Assembly: GCA_018700525.1 (NCBI GenBank)
Contig: JABITN010000213.1
Span: 1 to 36,262 of the forward strand
Direction of reading: 5' to 3'
DNA length: 36,262 nucleotides
Source: Opitutales bacterium
GTDB lineage: Bacteria > Verrucomicrobiota > Verrucomicrobiia > Opitutales > Opitutaceae
Both the position numbers and the translations under genes were made by a program. This document shows positions 2,852 to 13,974 of the stretch, piece by piece. The notes below the pieces were generated by a model. The model saw only the letters and a list, made by a program, of their open reading frames with translations. It was not told the origin of the DNA and did not search any database. Within the stretch, counting starts at the first letter, position 1. Every line of letters starts with the position of its first letter.

Positions 2852-3154
2852 ATGAAATCCGAACGATTCCAAAAACTCGTCGAGGCCAATCCCGACAACG
2901 AACTTTTTCGCTTTTCTCTAGGCCAAGCCCTCATGGAAGAAAAACAAGAAGCCCCCGCAATTGAAGCCTTCGACCAATGCCTCGCGAAAAAGCCCGATTG
3001 GATGGTCGCATCGATCTTCAAAGGGAAATGCCTTCTCACTCTAAAGCAAAACGACGAAGCCAAAGCAGAACTCCAAAAAGCCCTCCAACTTGCCATCGAC
3101 CAACACCACGAAGACCCCGAAGTCGAAGTCCGCAAACTCCTTTCCACCCTCTAG
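2852..3154 (+). CDS. small tetratricopeptide-repeat protein
   Basis: The 100-residue product is almost entirely helical and carries about two TPR-like units: residues 12-45 (NPDNELFRFSLGQALMEE onward, with the G-x-A pattern) and 46-82 (KPDWMVASIFKGKCLLTL onward). TPR pairs form a concave surface that binds peptides; a protein this short probably acts as an adaptor or a chaperone-like partner. No signal peptide, so it should be cytoplasmic. It lies 20 bases after the helicase gene in the same direction, which suggests one transcript, but no functional link to the helicase is known to me. The ATG at 2852 follows the leader CCAACAAACC. Confidence 0.75.
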   Translation: MKSERFQKLVEANPDNELFRFSLGQALMEEKQEAPAIEAFDQCLAKKPDWMVASIFKGKCLLTLKQNDEAKAELQKALQLAIDQHHEDPEVEVRKLLSTL

Positions 3155-3498: not shown

Positions 3499-5100
3499 CT
3501 AAAACCGCACTTCCCTCGGCCTGCACCAATAAGCCAGTCCGGTAATTAACGCCAAGATAGCCCAACTACACGCGACGAACCAGTCACCATGCTCGGTATA
3601 GAAAGTCTTCTTGCCCTTCCAGCGTTTGTCTCGATCGACTTCCCAGGTCGTTCCACCGGAAAACCAAATCTTCCCATTTTCGTCCAAGAGTTCTTCGCGT
3701 ACGTTTCCGAACTCGTCGATCCAGCCAGTCCACCCGTCATTCCCAACTCGAAATACAACGCGCCGATTTTCAACCGCCCTCAACACCGAATGGGCCATAT
3801 GTTGAAACGAAGCCCCACTTTGCCCGTACCAAGCGCTATTAGTCGCCACGAACAAGACCGCCGCGCCTTCCAGGACTGACTCACGAGCCAATGAGGGGAA
3901 CACATCTTCATAGCAAATCAATGATCCTATCTTGATCGTCCGACTAGGCATTGAGAGCGGCAACAGGGCCGGCTTATCGCCCGAATACAAATCGCCTTCG
4001 ATCGGTACGATCTTCTCGATCCACGGCCAGAATTTGCGCAATGGTATATACTCGCCGAAAGGCACCAAATGCCGCTTCGAATAATACTCTGGATACATTC
4101 CCCACTTTGGCCGAATCATAAAAACGCTATTGCGCCAGACTTCATCCGACTCGGCCGCCAGAGCCCCCGCGAAAATCGGCGTATCAATCTCAGTCGCCAA
4201 TCGCTCCGCCCAAGTCTGCATCGAAACGTCCCCTTTTATAGGATACGGCAATGTCGCTTCAGGCCAAAACATGACATCGGGTTTCATCGAAGCCAATCGT
4301 AACGTGTTTCGTTCAATTTGCTTCAAAATATCCAGTCCTTTGGCATTGTCCCATTTTTCATCCTGCGGAATCGCAGGCTGCATTGCTGCGGCCCGAAACA
4401 AAGGCTCGCGATCTTGACCGGAAATGTGACGCGTCTGCAAAAACGTCATGCTGACGAAAACCAGCAGGGCCAAATAGAATTCTGGACAAACTCGCTTCGA
4501 GCGGATTCGTGAATACTCAACGATTCGCACCCCGTATGCCGCGACCCCGGCATTCAGCAAAACCAAGCAAAACGAAATTCCCCATGCTCCAAAGAACACT
4601 GCGCTTTGAAGCATAATCGGCCGACTCCATTGGCTGGCCGACAAGGGCAACCAAGGAAACCCCGTAAATACCCAACCTCGGAAATGTTCGAGAATCACCC
4701 ACAAAGCCGCCGTTCCAAGGGCAAATGGAACGCCCATCCAGACTTCGCGTTTCAGTAGCTTTCGGCTCAACCAAGCCGTTCCGAGACACCACAGGACAAA
4801 ATGAAGCGCGACAATACCTGAAAGTAGAATCAATCCAAGCCAAGTTACATGCCGCAACCAAAAGATCAATACGACCCACGATGCCCATCCAATCGCTAAA
4901 CCTGCCCAAGCCACCTGCTTATACGACGGCTCCATTCGCAGCCACAAGAGAACTGGGATCAACAGTACAAAACCGGCCTCCGGGATATCGAACGGTGGAA
5001 ATGCCACAATTGTGCCAATCGTCGTAAAAACAACCGCACACACTTGAGCTATCGCCATACGATTTCGGGAGAACCAATTCGAAATATCGCTAATCAACAT
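3499..5100 (-). CDS. lnt: apolipoprotein N-acyltransferase
   Basis: Lnt transfers an acyl chain from phospholipid to the N-terminal cysteine of lipoproteins, the last step of lipoprotein maturation in the inner membrane. The protein has an N-terminal block of membrane segments and a C-terminal nitrilase domain. The nitrilase catalytic triad is visible: Glu in [10 protein letters not shown] (residue 281), Lys in [11 protein letters not shown] (342) and Cys in LICYEDVFP (396), with spacings like the E. coli enzyme's E267/K335/C387. A last hydrophobic segment precedes the C-terminus. The frame is open further upstream, to a GTG at 5214 (571 residues). I chose the ATG at 5100 (533 residues) because the family begins just before the first membrane segment ([18 protein letters not shown]) and because this leaves 155 bases to the divergent gene at 5256. 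An ATG at 5058 is a third option. Confidence 0.9.
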
Positions 5101-5255
5101 TCGCCGCCAAGGCAGGCCCAATTCCTCTTCGTGAGCAATCAAAAATACAACAAGCCATTTCGAGACCTGAGTTCCTACTATCGAAATAGATTGATAAAAC
5201 AATCCCATCAACACCCAGCCCTTGACGGTTTCGCGACAACAGATACATCTAGATC

Positions 5256-5492
5256 ATGGCAACCTACATTTATGAAACGATTCCCTCATCGGAATCCGAG
5301 GAGCCGATTCGATTTGAAGTTAAGCAAAGCATGAACGACGACGCGCTCACACTCCACCCGGACTCGGGAGCTCCCGTGAAACGCGTCATCACAGGCGGAT
5401 ACGGTTTCAATGTGAACGGTAACGAAGCATCAACACCGATGCCATCCGCAGGATCTAGCTGCTGCCAAAGCGGCGGCTGCGGCTGCGGCTAA
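5256..5492 (+). CDS. FmdB-like small protein lacking the zinc-ribbon cysteines
   Basis: The 78-residue product keeps the FmdB/CxxC_CxxC_SSSS framework: it starts MATYIYE, has RFEVKQSM in the middle and GAPVKRVITGGYGF where FmdB proteins have CGGPVRRLISGGxGF. Both zinc-binding CxxC pairs are gone: the first is replaced by IPSSES and the second by HPDSG. Instead the C-terminus is a Gly/Cys tail (SSCCQSGGCGCG) with five cysteines, which could bind metal in another way. FmdB-type proteins are called putative regulators, but their function is mostly unproven. The DUF3524 glycosyltransferase starts 23 bases downstream in the same direction, so the two are probably co-transcribed. The ATG at 5256 follows a leader without Shine-Dalgarno sequence. 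Confidence 0.7.
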   Translation: MATYIYETIPSSESEEPIRFEVKQSMNDDALTLHPDSGAPVKRVITGGYGFNVNGNEASTPMPSAGSSCCQSGGCGCG

Positions 5493-5515: not shown

Positions 5516-6655
5516 ATGCGAATCTGCCTCATCGAGCCGTTCTATACCGGTTCTCACAAACGCTGGGCAGACGAGCTCGCCAGTCGATCTCGCCACGAAA
5601 TCGATATTCTCTCGCTTCCAGGACGTCACTGGAAATGGCGAATGCACGGAGCTGCCATTACCCTAGCCCGCGAGTTCTCTTCAAAAAACCAACGCTACGA
5701 TCTCATTCTCGCAAGCGACATGCTCGACCTAACGGTCTTCCTTTCCTTGCTTCGACGGGAAATCTCCCAGACCCCAGTCGCTCTTTATTTCCACGAGAAC
5801 CAATTGCTTTATCCATGGTCGCCGCGCGATGCCGACACGAAGAAAGGTCGCGACCTGCACTACGCATTCATCAATTACACAAGCGCCCTGGCAGCCGATA
5901 AACTCTTCTTCAACTCAGACTATCACCGCACCGCCTTCCTCGCTGCTATTCCGGAATTCCTGACGCGTTATCCCGATTTCGAAAACAAAGAAACCGTTCC
6001 TCAACTCGAAGCCAAAAGCCAAACTCTCTGGCTTGGAATGGATCTAAAAGCCTTCGATACCCACCATTGCCCAAACAGAGGAACTCAATCCGAGCGCCCC
6101 CTCATTGTTTGGAATCACCGATGGGAATACGACAAGAACCCGATTGGTTTTTTTCGCATTCTTTATCACCTAATGGAACGCGGCATCGACTTCGACCTCG
6201 CCCTCCTGGGCGAAAGCTTCGAAGAAGCGCCTCCGTACTTCGTCGAAGCAAGAGAGCGATTAGGCAGTCGAATCGTTCACTACGGAATTGCAGAACAATT
6301 TTCAGACTACGCAACTTGGTTATGGAAAGCCGACATAGCGCTCGTCACCTCCAATCAAGATTTCTTCGGAGGCAGCGTGGTCGAAGCCATCTACTGCGGT
6401 TGTCACTCGATATTACCAAACCGATTAGCGTATCCAAATCACATAAACATTTCGCAGAACCAATCAAATTTCTACAAATCGGAATCCGATGCTGTAGACC
6501 TTTTGGAGCAATGGATTAAAAGTAAAGCCTGGAAGAAACCTTCAACGCTAAACGAACCCGTCAATCGATACGATTGGTCCAATCTGATCGCAAGCTACGA
6601 TACGGAATTTAAATCCCTCGCGATGCCCGCAAGGCAGATTTATCCGTCAATCTAA
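5516..6655 (+). CDS. DUF3524 glycosyltransferase, tRNA-queuosine alpha-mannosyltransferase family
   Basis: The 379-residue protein begins MRICLIEPFYTGSHKRW and continues with LPGRHWKWRMHGAAI, the hallmark of the DUF3524 N-terminal domain (about residues 2-170). The C-terminal half is a GT-B/GT4 domain with the acidic nucleotide-sugar motif FFGGSVVEAIYCG, where the first Glu is residue 290. The animal member of this family, GTDC1/QTMAN, mannosylates queuosine at position 34 of tRNA-Asp. The bacterial role is an inference: either the same modification or transfer of a sugar to another acceptor. It is soluble, with no signal peptide. It follows the FmdB-like gene by 23 bases. Its stop codon overlaps the end of the convergent peptidase remnant. 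No queuosine synthesis gene is in the window. Confidence 0.8.
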   Translation: MRICLIEPFYTGSHKRWADELASRSRHEIDILSLPGRHWKWRMHGAAITLAREFSSKNQRYDLILASDMLDLTVFLSLLRREISQTPVALYFHENQLLYPWSPRDADTKKGRDLHYAFINYTSALAADKLFFNSDYHRTAFLAAIPEFLTRYPDFENKETVPQLEAKSQTLWLGMDLKAFDTHHCPNRGTQSERPLIVWNHRWEYDKNPIGFFRILYHLMERGIDFDLALLGESFEEAPPYFVEARERLGSRIVHYGIAEQFSDYATWLWKADIALVTSNQDFFGGSVVEAIYCGCHSILPNRLAYPNHINISQNQSNFYKSESDAVDLLEQWIKSKAWKKPSTLNEPVNRYDWSNLIASYDTEFKSLAMPARQIYPSI

Positions 6656-7056: not shown

Positions 7057-8331
7057 CTAATCTAAATCGATGATCGACGCGTACTCCGGATCGTAGAGTC
7101 GCTTGTGAATGCGCAACGCCTGACCATCGGTCAAGTTAGCCAGGAAATCTCGAGCTACCAATCGCTTCCGCCTATAGTCCTTTCCAGCCGCCTTCATTAA
7201 AGCTGCAGCTTTTTCAGGCAAAATACGCGACTGTGGCCGATCGGTCGAAAAATAGGAATCGTCCAAAGCTCGGAAAAGATCTTCGAGAACCCTATCGCCT
7301 TTGTAATCCATCTGTTGCAGAGGGGCAGAACGGAAAATCAAATCTAAAGCCACGCGTTTGTAAAACTTGGCAACCCGCTTAGCTTGAGGGTCGATCGCAA
7401 GTTTGAACGCATATCGATTCGTAGCGCTCGCTAGGGCGCTCTTTCGAGGAACCAATCGACAAGAACTAATAAATTGTCCGATTTTCGCTCCGAATACCGC
7501 TTCCAGTCGATCCCTTCTGATATCCGCTATAAACGATTCGAACAATGGTTGCGTCTCCGCATCAAGTCCCTCCCGCGACGCCCAACGTTCCAGTCGTTCC
7601 AAAGTCAGAAAACCCGCCCGAACCCCGTCTACGATGTCATTGATGCAGTACGCTGTATCGTCCGACCAATCCATTATTTGACACTCGATACTCGAAATTC
7701 CGTCAAATGCTTCTTCGCTCTGCGGGCCTACCAAAGACGAATCAGCGCTGTGAGCGAAATCTCGATACTCTCGCTGAAAATCGTAAAGAAAGTGATTCTT
7801 AGGATTATCCCGCTCGGACATCGTGGACTTGTATTTCAGAATCCCATCGAGAAATGCCCGCGTAGGCGACATTCCCGTCTGACGTCCAACCGATTGATAC
7901 AGAGTATCCGTTATGAGGCGCAGGGTCTGAGCATTTCCTTCGAAACCATCGATGTCCTTGAAAAGGCGATGCAAAGTTCGCTCACCGCCATGCCCGAAAG
8001 GCGGATGCCCTAAATCATGACTCAGACAACACGCTTCTACTAAATCCGAATCGACAAAAAAGCCATCACTGAGATACTCGGAGTCCTTTTGCAAGAAATG
8101 GCAAATCGACCGTCCGATCTGAGCAACCTCAATCGAATGAGTCAGGCGAGTCCGATAAAAGTCGTATTCTCCAGATAAATACACCTGCGTTTTCGACTGC
8201 AACTTTCGAAACGCCGCCGAATGGATAATTCGATCTCGGTCCAATTGAAAAGGGGTCCTATAATCCTGCGGCCGAGAACCGCCCGAAAAGGGTTCGAAAT
8301 CGTAATCGTTATAAAAGGCGTTCGTCGGCAT
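7057..8331 (-). CDS. deoxyguanosinetriphosphate triphosphohydrolase-like HD protein (dGTPase family)
   Basis: dGTPase-family enzymes hydrolyse dNTPs to the nucleoside and tripolyphosphate, controlling nucleotide pools. The 424-residue product has the family opening (YRTPFQLDRDRIIHSAAFRKLQSKTQV; residues 25-50) and the HD-domain metal ligands: His65 in THSIEVAQIGR, His105-Asp106 in CCLSHDLGHPPFGHGGE, and an Asp in IMDWSDDTAY (about 221-225). The glycine-rich GHGGE segment is characteristic of the Dgt subfamily. The length is nearer the shorter Dgt-like type than the roughly 505-residue E. coli Dgt, so the preferred substrate may differ. The ATG at 8331 follows glyA by 35 bases on the same strand, so the two may be co-transcribed. 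Cytoplasmic, no signal peptide. Confidence 0.9.
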   Translation of the reverse strand: MPTNAFYNDYDFEPFSGGSRPQDYRTPFQLDRDRIIHSAAFRKLQSKTQVYLSGEYDFYRTRLTHSIEVAQIGRSICHFLQKDSEYLSDGFFVDSDLVEACCLSHDLGHPPFGHGGERTLHRLFKDIDGFEGNAQTLRLITDTLYQSVGRQTGMSPTRAFLDGILKYKSTMSERDNPKNHFLYDFQREYRDFAHSADSSLVGPQSEEAFDGISSIECQIMDWSDDTAYCINDIVDGVRAGFLTLERLERWASREGLDAETQPLFESFIADIRRDRLEAVFGAKIGQFISSCRLVPRKSALASATNRYAFKLAIDPQAKRVAKFYKRVALDLIFRSAPLQQMDYKGDRVLEDLFRALDDSYFSTDRPQSRILPEKAAALMKAAGKDYRRKRLVARDFLANLTDGQALRIHKRLYDPEYASIIDLD

Positions 8332-10168: not shown

Positions 10169-11248
10169 TTATTTCGAATCCCTACCTATGAGCGATCCCC
10201 AGTAATTCGCAAACACCAGATGCTGACGCGCATCCTCCTGGGCAACGTTCCAAACAGGCGACGCCAGAGAATCAATATCCACCATTCCAAAAGCGTCAAT
10301 CGGACTAATCGGCCCCCCGACCGCTCGAGCGATCGTCTTATCGAGCCACTGATTCAATCGCTCCAACCGCGCCGCATCGTCGCGCAATAGAAGATAAGCC
10401 GCTTCCCAATCGACAATCGACTCGAGAATGTCGCCGCTCAATTGCCCGCCCCACAACCAATACGCCCCGTCGTTCGCCCAGTTTTTGAGTTCAACCCACT
10501 GCTCCTCGCTCATCGAATTCAACGGATTGACGAATCGAATTTTCGAACCTATCGCAGAGACCGATTCGAAATTCACGAGAGGAGGCCGTGCCCATGCAGT
10601 AGCCAATGTATGAATGAGAGCGTCGAAACGATCACTCTTCCGATCGACGGAATTTGCCACGACCGGACGATCCAACTCGATTGCATTCGGGGCCCCTAGC
10701 TTATCGGTCAACGCCAAGATTCGCGACTGCATATCAAGGATGTTCGTAGCGAATGCCCATGAAATCGTGTCTTGATCGGACTGCGTGCCGGTCGGCCAAT
10801 TCGCCGCAACCGCCGTTTCCCAATCGCCAGGATTCTCCAAATAATAATCCGGATTGCCCGTGTATATTCGAAGCAGCTCCAAAATTCCCGACCGGCGAAG
10901 CTTTTTGTCCGGCTCAGCCATTCCATAAGCGATCAACGGAATCGAAACCGCCCGATCCTTCGCCTTGAAAGCGGTAAGCATGAAACGATCAGGAGCGACC
11001 TTCAACCCACTCGCCACGTAGGAAAGCTCCTGGATGCATTTTTCGCAACTCAAACTATACACGAGGATCCGATCGGGGATCACGCTCGCCTCTCCACCCG
11101 GAGCCAGCCAATCCATCGAATACGCCAACAATGGCTGCACCGGAAGAACGATCGATTGCTCGGATTGAGCATTTACCCATAATCCGGATACAATTAATAA
11201 AATAGCGGAAATGCCCAAGGCCCTGGTAGAAAATCGAGTTTTCAACAT
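10169..11248 (-). CDS. secreted protein of unknown function with a CxxC motif
   Basis: I do not recognise this protein. The chosen start (ATG at 11248) gives 359 residues that begin with a basic region and a hydrophobic segment (LGISAILLIVSGLWVNAQ), a signal peptide with likely cleavage after VNA. Soon after it comes ILVYSLSCEKCIQELSYVA, a beta-strand followed by C68-E-K-C71 and a helix, which resembles a thioredoxin-fold active site. The remainder is a mixed alpha/beta region rich in Trp with no known motif. An upstream in-frame ATG at 11269 would add seven residues and put more charge before the signal. The gene stands alone on the minus strand: 272 bases before glyA and divergent from the small membrane protein at 11388. 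A redox or disulfide role in the periplasm is only a guess. Confidence 0.65.
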   Translation of the reverse strand: MLKTRFSTRALGISAILLIVSGLWVNAQSEQSIVLPVQPLLAYSMDWLAPGGEASVIPDRILVYSLSCEKCIQELSYVASGLKVAPDRFMLTAFKAKDRAVSIPLIAYGMAEPDKKLRRSGILELLRIYTGNPDYYLENPGDWETAVAANWPTGTQSDQDTISWAFATNILDMQSRILALTDKLGAPNAIELDRPVVANSVDRKSDRFDALIHTLATAWARPPLVNFESVSAIGSKIRFVNPLNSMSEEQWVELKNWANDGAYWLWGGQLSGDILESIVDWEAAYLLLRDDAARLERLNQWLDKTIARAVGGPISPIDAFGMVDIDSLASPVWNVAQEDARQHLVFANYWGSLIGRDSK

Positions 11249-11316
11249 ACCCCGGCACTGAAGCCGCATAAGTCCGCGAGCGCAAATCAGAAATCACGGC
11301 GAGGCCGGCGAGTCTC

Positions 11317-12726: not shown

Positions 12727-13974
12727 ATGAGACTCCTAACCTTCGCCTTCATCGTTCTCGTCTGCCTTCAGGTAACATTCGCTCAGAAATTCTACGAGCT
12801 TGAGCCGATTAACTACAGCAAGAGCGAAGCCGAGGACGCCATAACCGACTACTTCTCAAGCCCTGAGAATATCGAAGCCTGGAAGAGCGAAGGCGACAAG
12901 GGTTACCTCGCCAACTTTTTAGAAGCCTTCGAGATCCCCGCAGCCTCCCAAGTTCTGGTGTTCTCAAAAACTAGCCTCCAAGTAGAACGTATCTTTCCCA
13001 ACAGTCCGCGGGCCATCTACTACAACGACGACATCTACGTCGGCTGGGTTCCTTACAGTGACATGCTAGAGATATCCGTATCCAGCCCCAAGACTGGAAC
13101 CAATTTCTACTCGCTCAAACCCGTCGACGGAAAGCCCAAACTCACGCGCCAAACGCACGACTGCCTGCGCTGCCACGGAGGATCATTCACCCGCGACGTC
13201 CCTGGCCACCTTGTCCGCTCCGTTTACCCCGATTTCGAAGGCCAGCCAATATTCAAAGCCGGCACCCATTTCACAGACCAGACCACTCCTCTTGAAAACC
13301 GCTGGGGCGGATGGCTCGTCTCCCGCTCGCCGATGGACCATATGGGAAACACAATCTTCAAAGAAACTGACCGAGGAGCCGACCAAGGAAGACCGTTTAC
13401 GATAAAAGACGTCCCGAACATCGACTACCCAGGAAAAGGCAGCGATATCGTGTCTCTCCTAATCCTCGGACACCAAACCCAATTACACACTCTGATGGCC
13501 GACCTCACCATCAAAACGCGACGCGCTCTGCACGACCAAAAGATCATGGACGAGCTCCTCCAACGCGACGAGCCCCTATCCGACTCCACCCGAAGCCGTA
13601 TCAAGCACGCCGCCGACAAGGTTCTCAAATGCATGTTCTTCATCGAAGAAATCGATCTCCCGAAGATCGATATGGCGGGCTCCGTATTTTCCAAGAACTT
13701 CACCCAGCGCAGCCCCAAAGACAGCCAAGACCGTTCCCTCTTCGAACTGCAGATGGATGGGCGCATGCTTCGCTACCCATTCAGCTATTTAATCTACTCC
13801 GACACCTTCAACAACCTGCCGCCCGAAGCCCTCAACTACATCTGGGCCGAAATTGAACGGATCTTGGCGCCAACTGAACGGCGCGAAGGATACGAACGCC
13901 TTTCCCGGCGAAATAAAATCACTATCAAGGAAATCCTTCTTGAAACCCACCCCTCCCCCAAGAAGTATTGGTGA
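12727..13974 (+). CDS. secreted monoheme c-type cytochrome-like protein of unknown function
   Basis: The 415-residue product has a signal peptide (MRLLTFAFIVLVCLQVTFAQ) and one heme c attachment motif, C146-L-R-C149-H150, within THDCLRCHGG. The surrounding sequence (RQTHDCLRCHGGSFTRDVPG) sits in the middle of the protein, not in a small separate cytochrome domain. The flanking regions show no other known motif; His and Met residues after the motif (for example SPMDHMGN) could supply the sixth heme ligand. Similar proteins with a single central CxxCH occur in planctomycetes and verrucomicrobia, but I know of no proven function. The FNR-type palindrome upstream suggests control by oxygen or nitrogen oxides. 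The C-terminal 130 residues are helical and charged. It appears to be transcribed alone. Confidence 0.7.
   Translation: MRLLTFAFIVLVCLQVTFAQKFYELEPINYSKSEAEDAITDYFSSPENIEAWKSEGDKGYLANFLEAFEIPAASQVLVFSKTSLQVERIFPNSPRAIYYNDDIYVGWVPYSDMLEISVSSPKTGTNFYSLKPVDGKPKLTRQTHDCLRCHGGSFTRDVPGHLVRSVYPDFEGQPIFKAGTHFTDQTTPLENRWGGWLVSRSPMDHMGNTIFKETDRGADQGRPFTIKDVPNIDYPGKGSDIVSLLILGHQTQLHTLMADLTIKTRRALHDQKIMDELLQRDEPLSDSTRSRIKHAADKVLKCMFFIEEIDLPKIDMAGSVFSKNFTQRSPKDSQDRSLFELQMDGRMLRYPFSYLIYSDTFNNLPPEALNYIWAEIERILAPTERREGYERLSRRNKITIKEILLETHPSPKKYW

Follow-up and report, generated by a model that had tools for sequence, protein, structure and literature searches.

In this work, we analyzed a stretch of 36,262 nucleotides from an Opitutales bacterium (hereafter the window) and found that one of its genes encodes a further member of a known family, that of animal QTMAN (GTDC1). 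The role of this family in bacteria is putative, and in Chloroflexota its members stand in an unexpected genomic setting of the queuine-salvage type. The likeliest function of the family is the glycosylation of queuosine (Q) in tRNA. The animal enzyme was reportedly named QTMAN in a Cell paper of 2023.

A bacterial gene of the QTMAN family

The window gene is an intact, full-length open reading frame with an ATG start (Table 1). Residues 2-175 of its product matched the QTMAN_N profile PF12038 from end to end (1.2e-61, 207.8 bits against a cut-off of 25; profile positions 1-168 of 168), and both stretches that an initial annotation of this DNA had read as the DUF3524 hallmark, EPFYTGSHKRW and HWKWRMHGAAI, are present in the reading frame. 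The same profile had no match in any of the 14 control genomes, including that of E. coli, which has Q genes, so that the match is not a general glycosyltransferase signal and the full-length family membership claimed in that annotation is confirmed. The family has this single match in the own genome. In the C-terminal half of the protein, PF00534 was detected under its cut-off (1.9e-4, 21.5 bits against 26.4), and it was found in 49 of the 51 aligned members (E 0.001). The closest relative among the matches listed belongs to an Opitutaceae MAG (L017, 86-87% identity). Across 373 codons the two genes differ at 40, 25 and 148 first, second and third codon positions; 120 of the codon changes are synonymous and 53 non-synonymous, and this pattern is that of a conserved protein. 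No NCBIfam model matched the window protein, no solved structure was matched by phmmer at 0.01, and no PHROGs family matched it. A phage or plasmid origin was considered and rejected, as the protein was unmatched in 50,697 phage and 72,556 plasmid records (1e-5); among viral contigs there was a lone partial 32% match, to query residues 236-308.

Table 1. Features of the window at and around the QTMAN-family gene
Feature	Position	Strand	Basis
L,D-transpeptidase-like protein	158-694
helicase	735-2831
TPR protein	2852-3154
apolipoprotein N-acyltransferase	3499-5214	-
FmdB-like small protein, 78 aa, Cys-rich C-terminus	5256-5492	+	TIGR02605 below cut-off, no Pfam match
predicted tRNA-queuosine glycosyltransferase, QTMAN family, 379 aa	5516-6655	+	PF12038, GT-B model, codon-position bias relative to L017
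QTMAN_N domain (presumed acceptor side); S13 H14, W39-W41-R42, HENQ93-96	5519-6040	+	PF12038
C-terminal GT-B (group 1) domain, presumed nucleotide-sugar side	6083-6622	+	PF00534 (weak), fold, family profile
HD-domain protein	7057-8331	-

An AlphaFold2 model of the window protein, built on a 51-sequence alignment (pLDDT 93.3, pTM 0.91), shows a GT-B fold that spans residues 1-373, with VIA-align and Foldseek in agreement. The nearest solved folds in VIA-align were group-1 enzymes, namely sucrose-phosphate synthase (Z 31.6), MshA (Z 29.6) and BshA (Z 29.4); GDP-Man-bound PimB' and PimA aligned to the model with Z 26.1 and 25.9, respectively. In addition, the sequence profile of the family matched group-1 glycosyltransferases in the C-terminal half, including PimA (4n9w, 0.0014; 2gej, 0.0015). 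The GT-B fold, as modelled, does not choose among GDP-, UDP- and ADP-sugars.

Residues S13, H14, R42, H93, E94, Q96, P100 and N133 in the first half of the protein, and W199, R202, D206, K207, G232, G257, Y265 and G285 further on, are identical in 76 of 76 aligned members. By analogy with GT4 enzymes, we take R202 and K207 to hold the donor phosphates. The initial annotation had described a GT-B half with a complete donor motif: the fold is clear, but the motif of the window protein is D282-x7-E290 and not E-x7-E. Among the 76 members, 42 have E and 34 have D at position 282. Seven members have another residue in place of E290 (six Q, one G), and these include three Desulfuromonadales and one Geomonas.

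Distribution and phylogeny

A genome scan returned at least 590 pattern matches, at least 572 of them relatives, in bacteria; the best 80 were retained as loci, with the reading frame recovered in 73. These best 80 loci belong to Opitutales and other Verrucomicrobiota, Desulfuromonadales, Bacteroidota, Balneolota, KSB1, Marinimicrobia, Chloroflexota, Planctomycetota, one Bacillota isolate and others. In the own phylum, 15 of 288 genomes carry the family, each with one match, and the genome of the window is among these 15; in Chloroflexota the carriers number 27 of 251 genomes. It is thus both common and scattered in bacteria.

In an unrooted tree, drawn with a root for display only and without the fragment or odd rows G550 and G544, the window clade lies nearest to sequences of Bacteroidota and Balneolota, apart from 12 other rows of the own phylum that form a separate clade (support 99/89). 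This placement suggests horizontal transfer. Near the donor site the window subfamily reads WNHRWEYD and QDFFG; 11 of the 13 other own-phylum rows have W[AV]xRWE there, mostly with HEFFG.

Co-occurrence with the genes of queuosine synthesis

The own genome contains one TGT, which scores over the TIGR00430 equivalog cut-off and has the preQ1-type pocket GGVSVG, together with QueA and QueG; QueH was not found by profile search. The host thus has tgt and a source of Q, its genome encoding the late steps of the synthesis. We extended the comparison to a broad set of 65 carriers from several phyla, made up of the 15 own-phylum genomes and the genomes of 50 of the 80 loci. QueA was found in 64 of them, TGT in 61, QueG in 38 and QueH in 22, some of these matches being pieces at contig ends; either QueG or QueH was present in 60, and all three steps in 56. 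The presence of tgt and queG or queH in genomes with the gene, which the initial annotation had proposed to look for, is thus seen in the own genome and in most of the broad set; having tgt, queA and queG, this organism is not among the carriers lacking tgt or queuosine altogether that were named there as counter-evidence. The sugar-modified queuosine expected there is plausible in this organism, given the firm family assignment and the three genes, as a prediction from family membership. The interpretation in the initial annotation is thus supported in part.

The misses in the broad set were G289 for QueA, and G119, G294, G309 and G310 for TGT. In G289 the TGT lies in pieces across two contigs, so that an assembly gap is likely for the missing queA, and in G294 QueA is a 35-residue piece at a contig end. 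G119, rated 100% complete, is a standing exception: it has queA and queG and no TGT match, there is no TGT beside either gene (surroundings L174 and L175), and its QTMAN relative (L016, G119:C121:24948-28466) is the most divergent one, with 27% identity and an end branch of 3.87. The association with tgt is thus family-wide, with exceptions. As a separate observation, QueG and QueH were never found together in the 65 carriers (38 and 22, overlap 0), and five had neither.

Co-occurrence within the own phylum was dropped as evidence because queA is near universal there (278 of 288 genomes), and for the same reason we used the Chloroflexota, in which queA is patchy. Their 251 genomes comprise 163 with QueA, 202 with TGT and 64 with Q_salvage (PF10343). 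Nine of the Chloroflexota carriers have TGT and QueA and 18 have TGT only, with no TGT-less carrier; the non-carriers divide into 149 with both, 26 with TGT only, 5 with QueA only and 44 with neither. Consequently, TGT is present in 27/27 carriers versus 175/224 non-carriers (p 0.0035), and none of the 49 TGT-less genomes carries the family. The relation to QueA is negative: it is less frequent among carriers (9/27) than among non-carriers (154/224, p 0.0005), and this argues against a simple tie between the family and Q synthesis. Among the queA-less genomes, the family occurs in 18 of the 44 with TGT and in none of the 44 without it (p 8.5e-7, kinship ignored). Since 15 of the 17 queA-less Chloroflexota rows of the tree fall into one clade (support 100/98), about three lineages underlie this small p-value. 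Four of the queA-less carriers (G455, G471, G502 and G574) are single contigs of 4.7-5.8 Mb, which makes an assembly gap an unlikely explanation for the missing queA there. In Chloroflexota, then, the family follows tgt and not Q synthesis.

TGT pockets of the Chloroflexota carriers

In the part of PMC6165067 that was available, QTRT1 is described as having a glycine at the place of bacterial Val233, a valine that would interfere with the cyclopentene of queuine, and the available part of PMC11570991 gives GG[LS][AS]G as the typical motif of queuine-salvaging bacterial TGTs. Pockets were read for six of the 18 queA-less carriers (G398, G582, G502, G566, G534 and G389), with one pocket, that of the best-scoring TGT, read in genomes with several matches; all six have GGSLG, one position off the published motif (L for A or S). 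In the nine queA-bearing Chloroflexota carriers the pocket is GGLSVG or GGLAVG (9/9). Judged by their residues, the pockets of the six TGTs read look queuine-type. The QTMAN sequence of G455 groups with that of G389. In each of the six TGTs (L099-L104), SGGFQVFSL is also followed by an insert of about 20 residues.

The same GGSLG pocket is found in the three TGT genes that were retrieved from a position beside a Q_salvage gene, in G545, G577 and G489 (L146-L148). These are queA-bearing Chloroflexota that do not carry QTMAN, and the arrangement of their genes suggests parallel routes of Q synthesis and queuine salvage. In the queA-less non-carriers, of which 14 of 26 were read, the pocket is GGLAG in nine and has Val or Ile in five; queuine-type pockets thus occur in queA-less genomes without the family as well, and salvage does not imply a QTMAN gene. 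Furthermore, Q_salvage is present in just 2 of the 27 Chloroflexota carriers, so that uptake of queuine itself would be required in most of those without queA.

Proposed function and alternative explanations

Taken together, the defining domain of a Q mannosyltransferase, the company of tgt with few exceptions and the persistence of the family where Q could only be salvaged point towards an action on Q in tRNA. We consider it probable that the window gene encodes a retaining GT-B glycosyltransferase that joins a single hexose to the cyclopentenediol of Q34 in a Q-tRNA; the hexose is most likely alpha-mannose, with GDP-mannose as the donor. The own organism would build Q on the tRNA with Tgt (of the preQ1 type), QueA and QueG, and the window enzyme would act last, after these three. 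The acceptor, the mannose, the identity of the tRNA (Asp in animals) and any decoding effect are predictions, and mannose, taken from the animal enzyme alone, is our best guess for the sugar. It is rather unlikely, and still worth weighing, that the acceptor is the same and the product is glucosyl-, galactosyl- or another hexosyl-Q, or that another hydroxyl or tRNA is used, perhaps more than one of the four Q-tRNAs. The donor-site stretches of the window subfamily, which are unlike those of most other own-phylum rows, would fit such a difference, as would the use of UDP-, ADP- and GDP-sugars by the structural neighbours. Yet R202, D206, K207, G285 and the N-terminal HE-Q core do not vary in the 76 rows, and the animal enzyme attaches mannose (PMC12518689), GDP-mannose transfer being cited in PMC8654956, both as far as the accessible text of these papers goes.

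It seems to us improbable that the acceptor is something other than queuosine, the enzyme being an ordinary GT-B glycosyltransferase for envelope components or small molecules whose association with tgt is a matter of descent. Many envelope and small-molecule enzymes do have the same fold, four of the 65 carriers are without a TGT match, and most of the queA-less cases come from one clade. The genomic surroundings could be read in the same direction: by tblastn, no homologue of tgt, queA, queG, queH or Q_salvage was found near QTMAN in 88 sequences (the 80 loci, 7 further flanks and the window), with flank lengths that differ and single-sequence queries that may miss distant homologues. An operon with Q genes was rejected on these grounds, and the statement of the initial annotation that the gene lacks known queuosine genes as partners is borne out within the 88 sequences. 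Besides, in G471 and G455, both single-contig Chloroflexota, the opposite strand carries a sugar-nucleotidyltransferase-like gene at a distance of about 1 kb from QTMAN (L167:6336-7310 and L168:6187-7161); PF00483 and many NCBIfam models match this gene, the NCBIfam models listed all scoring below their cut-offs, and these matches do not tell the sugar. Against this explanation stand the TGT in every Chloroflexota carrier and the lack of the family in all 49 TGT-less genomes of that phylum, the queuine-type TGT kept by the queA-less carriers read, and the single family match in each of the 15 own-phylum carriers. Nor is envelope-sugar synthesis represented among the seven annotated recurrent neighbour clusters, which are an alpha/beta hydrolase (17 loci), PrsW-like, SpoIIE, TyrRS, SmpB, D-Tyr-tRNA deacylase and MazG; TyrRS and SmpB near a few QTMAN copies may hint at translation. 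We regard as about equally improbable an enzyme that acts on free queuosine or queuine, or on a TGT-dependent derivative (epoxyqueuosine, glutamyl-Q), instead of mature Q in tRNA. The five carriers of 65 without QueG and QueH by these profiles would suit it, but all five may reflect assembly gaps or other reductases, and the accessible part of PMC12518689 presents the animal homologue as a mannosyltransferase of Q-tRNA.

Relation to known systems

The glycosylation of queuosine in tRNA, our preferred reading, is modelled on animal QTMAN, the alpha-mannosyltransferase of tRNA-Asp queuosine. The window protein resembles it in PF12038 over its whole length, in GT-B architecture and in a tgt-bearing host, as judged through the Pfam model; it differs in the D-x7-E donor motif and in a bacterial host with its own Q synthesis (queA, queG). 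The animal layout, with tgt and QTMAN and without queA, is shared by the queA-less Chloroflexota carriers. With actinobacterial PimA and PimB', the protein has in common the fold and a weak profile match in the C-terminal half, whereas its N-terminal half lies outside that match and identity in the structural alignments is 14-18%. PimA and PimB' act on lipid acceptors.

Queuine salvage by bacteria whose genomes have tgt only, such as Chlamydia trachomatis (PMC11570991), resembles the setting of those queA-less Chloroflexota carriers whose pockets were read: queA is absent, and the TGT pocket contains no valine. The accessible portion of that paper mentions no sugar transferase. The own organism, with queA and a preQ1-type TGT, is unlike this salvage type. 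Mannosyl-queuosine (manQ) is presented, in the available text of PMC12518689 and PMC8654956, as a nucleoside of animals or higher vertebrates whose purpose is debated. The glycoRNA detected by lectins in E. coli (PMC12873605, seen in part) is a different claim from manQ. No report of bacterial mannosyl-queuosine or of a bacterial QTMAN member was found in the literature searched, most subscription papers lying outside it, and the accessible text of these three articles reports no bacterial manQ.

Sugar-decorated queuosine may thus not be an animal speciality. We tentatively suggest, with slightly more doubt than belief, that glycosylated Q is old and widespread in bacteria and that one Chloroflexota lineage runs the animal route of queuine uptake, queuine-type TGT and sugar, without Q synthesis. 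If true, the animal pathway has a counterpart in free-living bacteria. If many bacteria make manQ or a near relative of it, its function could be approached by simple genetics, and one could ask where the animal enzyme came from. The queA-less Chloroflexota carriers provide the sharp case, in which sugar-modified Q should appear only when queuine is supplied.

Surroundings of the gene in the window

The small FmdB-like reading frame ends 23 bases upstream of the QTMAN gene (Table 1). It reaches 21.3 bits with TIGR02605, below the cut-off of 31.3, has no Pfam match and no CxxC, i.e. no zinc ribbon; as FmdB membership was taken to mean TIGR02605 over the cut-off together with CxxC pairs, we call it FmdB-like only. 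The pairing with an FmdB-like protein pointed out in the initial annotation stands as far as adjacency goes: such a gene lies upstream in seven of seven window-clade loci (the window, L017, L018, L012, L019, L068 and L083), 7 to 192 bases ahead of the start of the QTMAN match. In the clustering of recurrent neighbours, the FmdB-like protein fell into a cluster of five loci, the window included, and did not recur more widely. Being present throughout the clade and not recurring more widely, the FmdB-like gene looks like a feature of the lineage; perhaps it is co-transcribed with the QTMAN gene. Its product ends in the Cys-rich tail CCQSGGCGCG, which is conserved in the window clade. Elsewhere in the window, the reading frame at 10169-11269 (- strand) has no Pfam match, and the 415-aa reading frame at 12727-13974, likewise without one, contains a CxxCH motif (CLRCHGG) and possibly encodes a haem protein.
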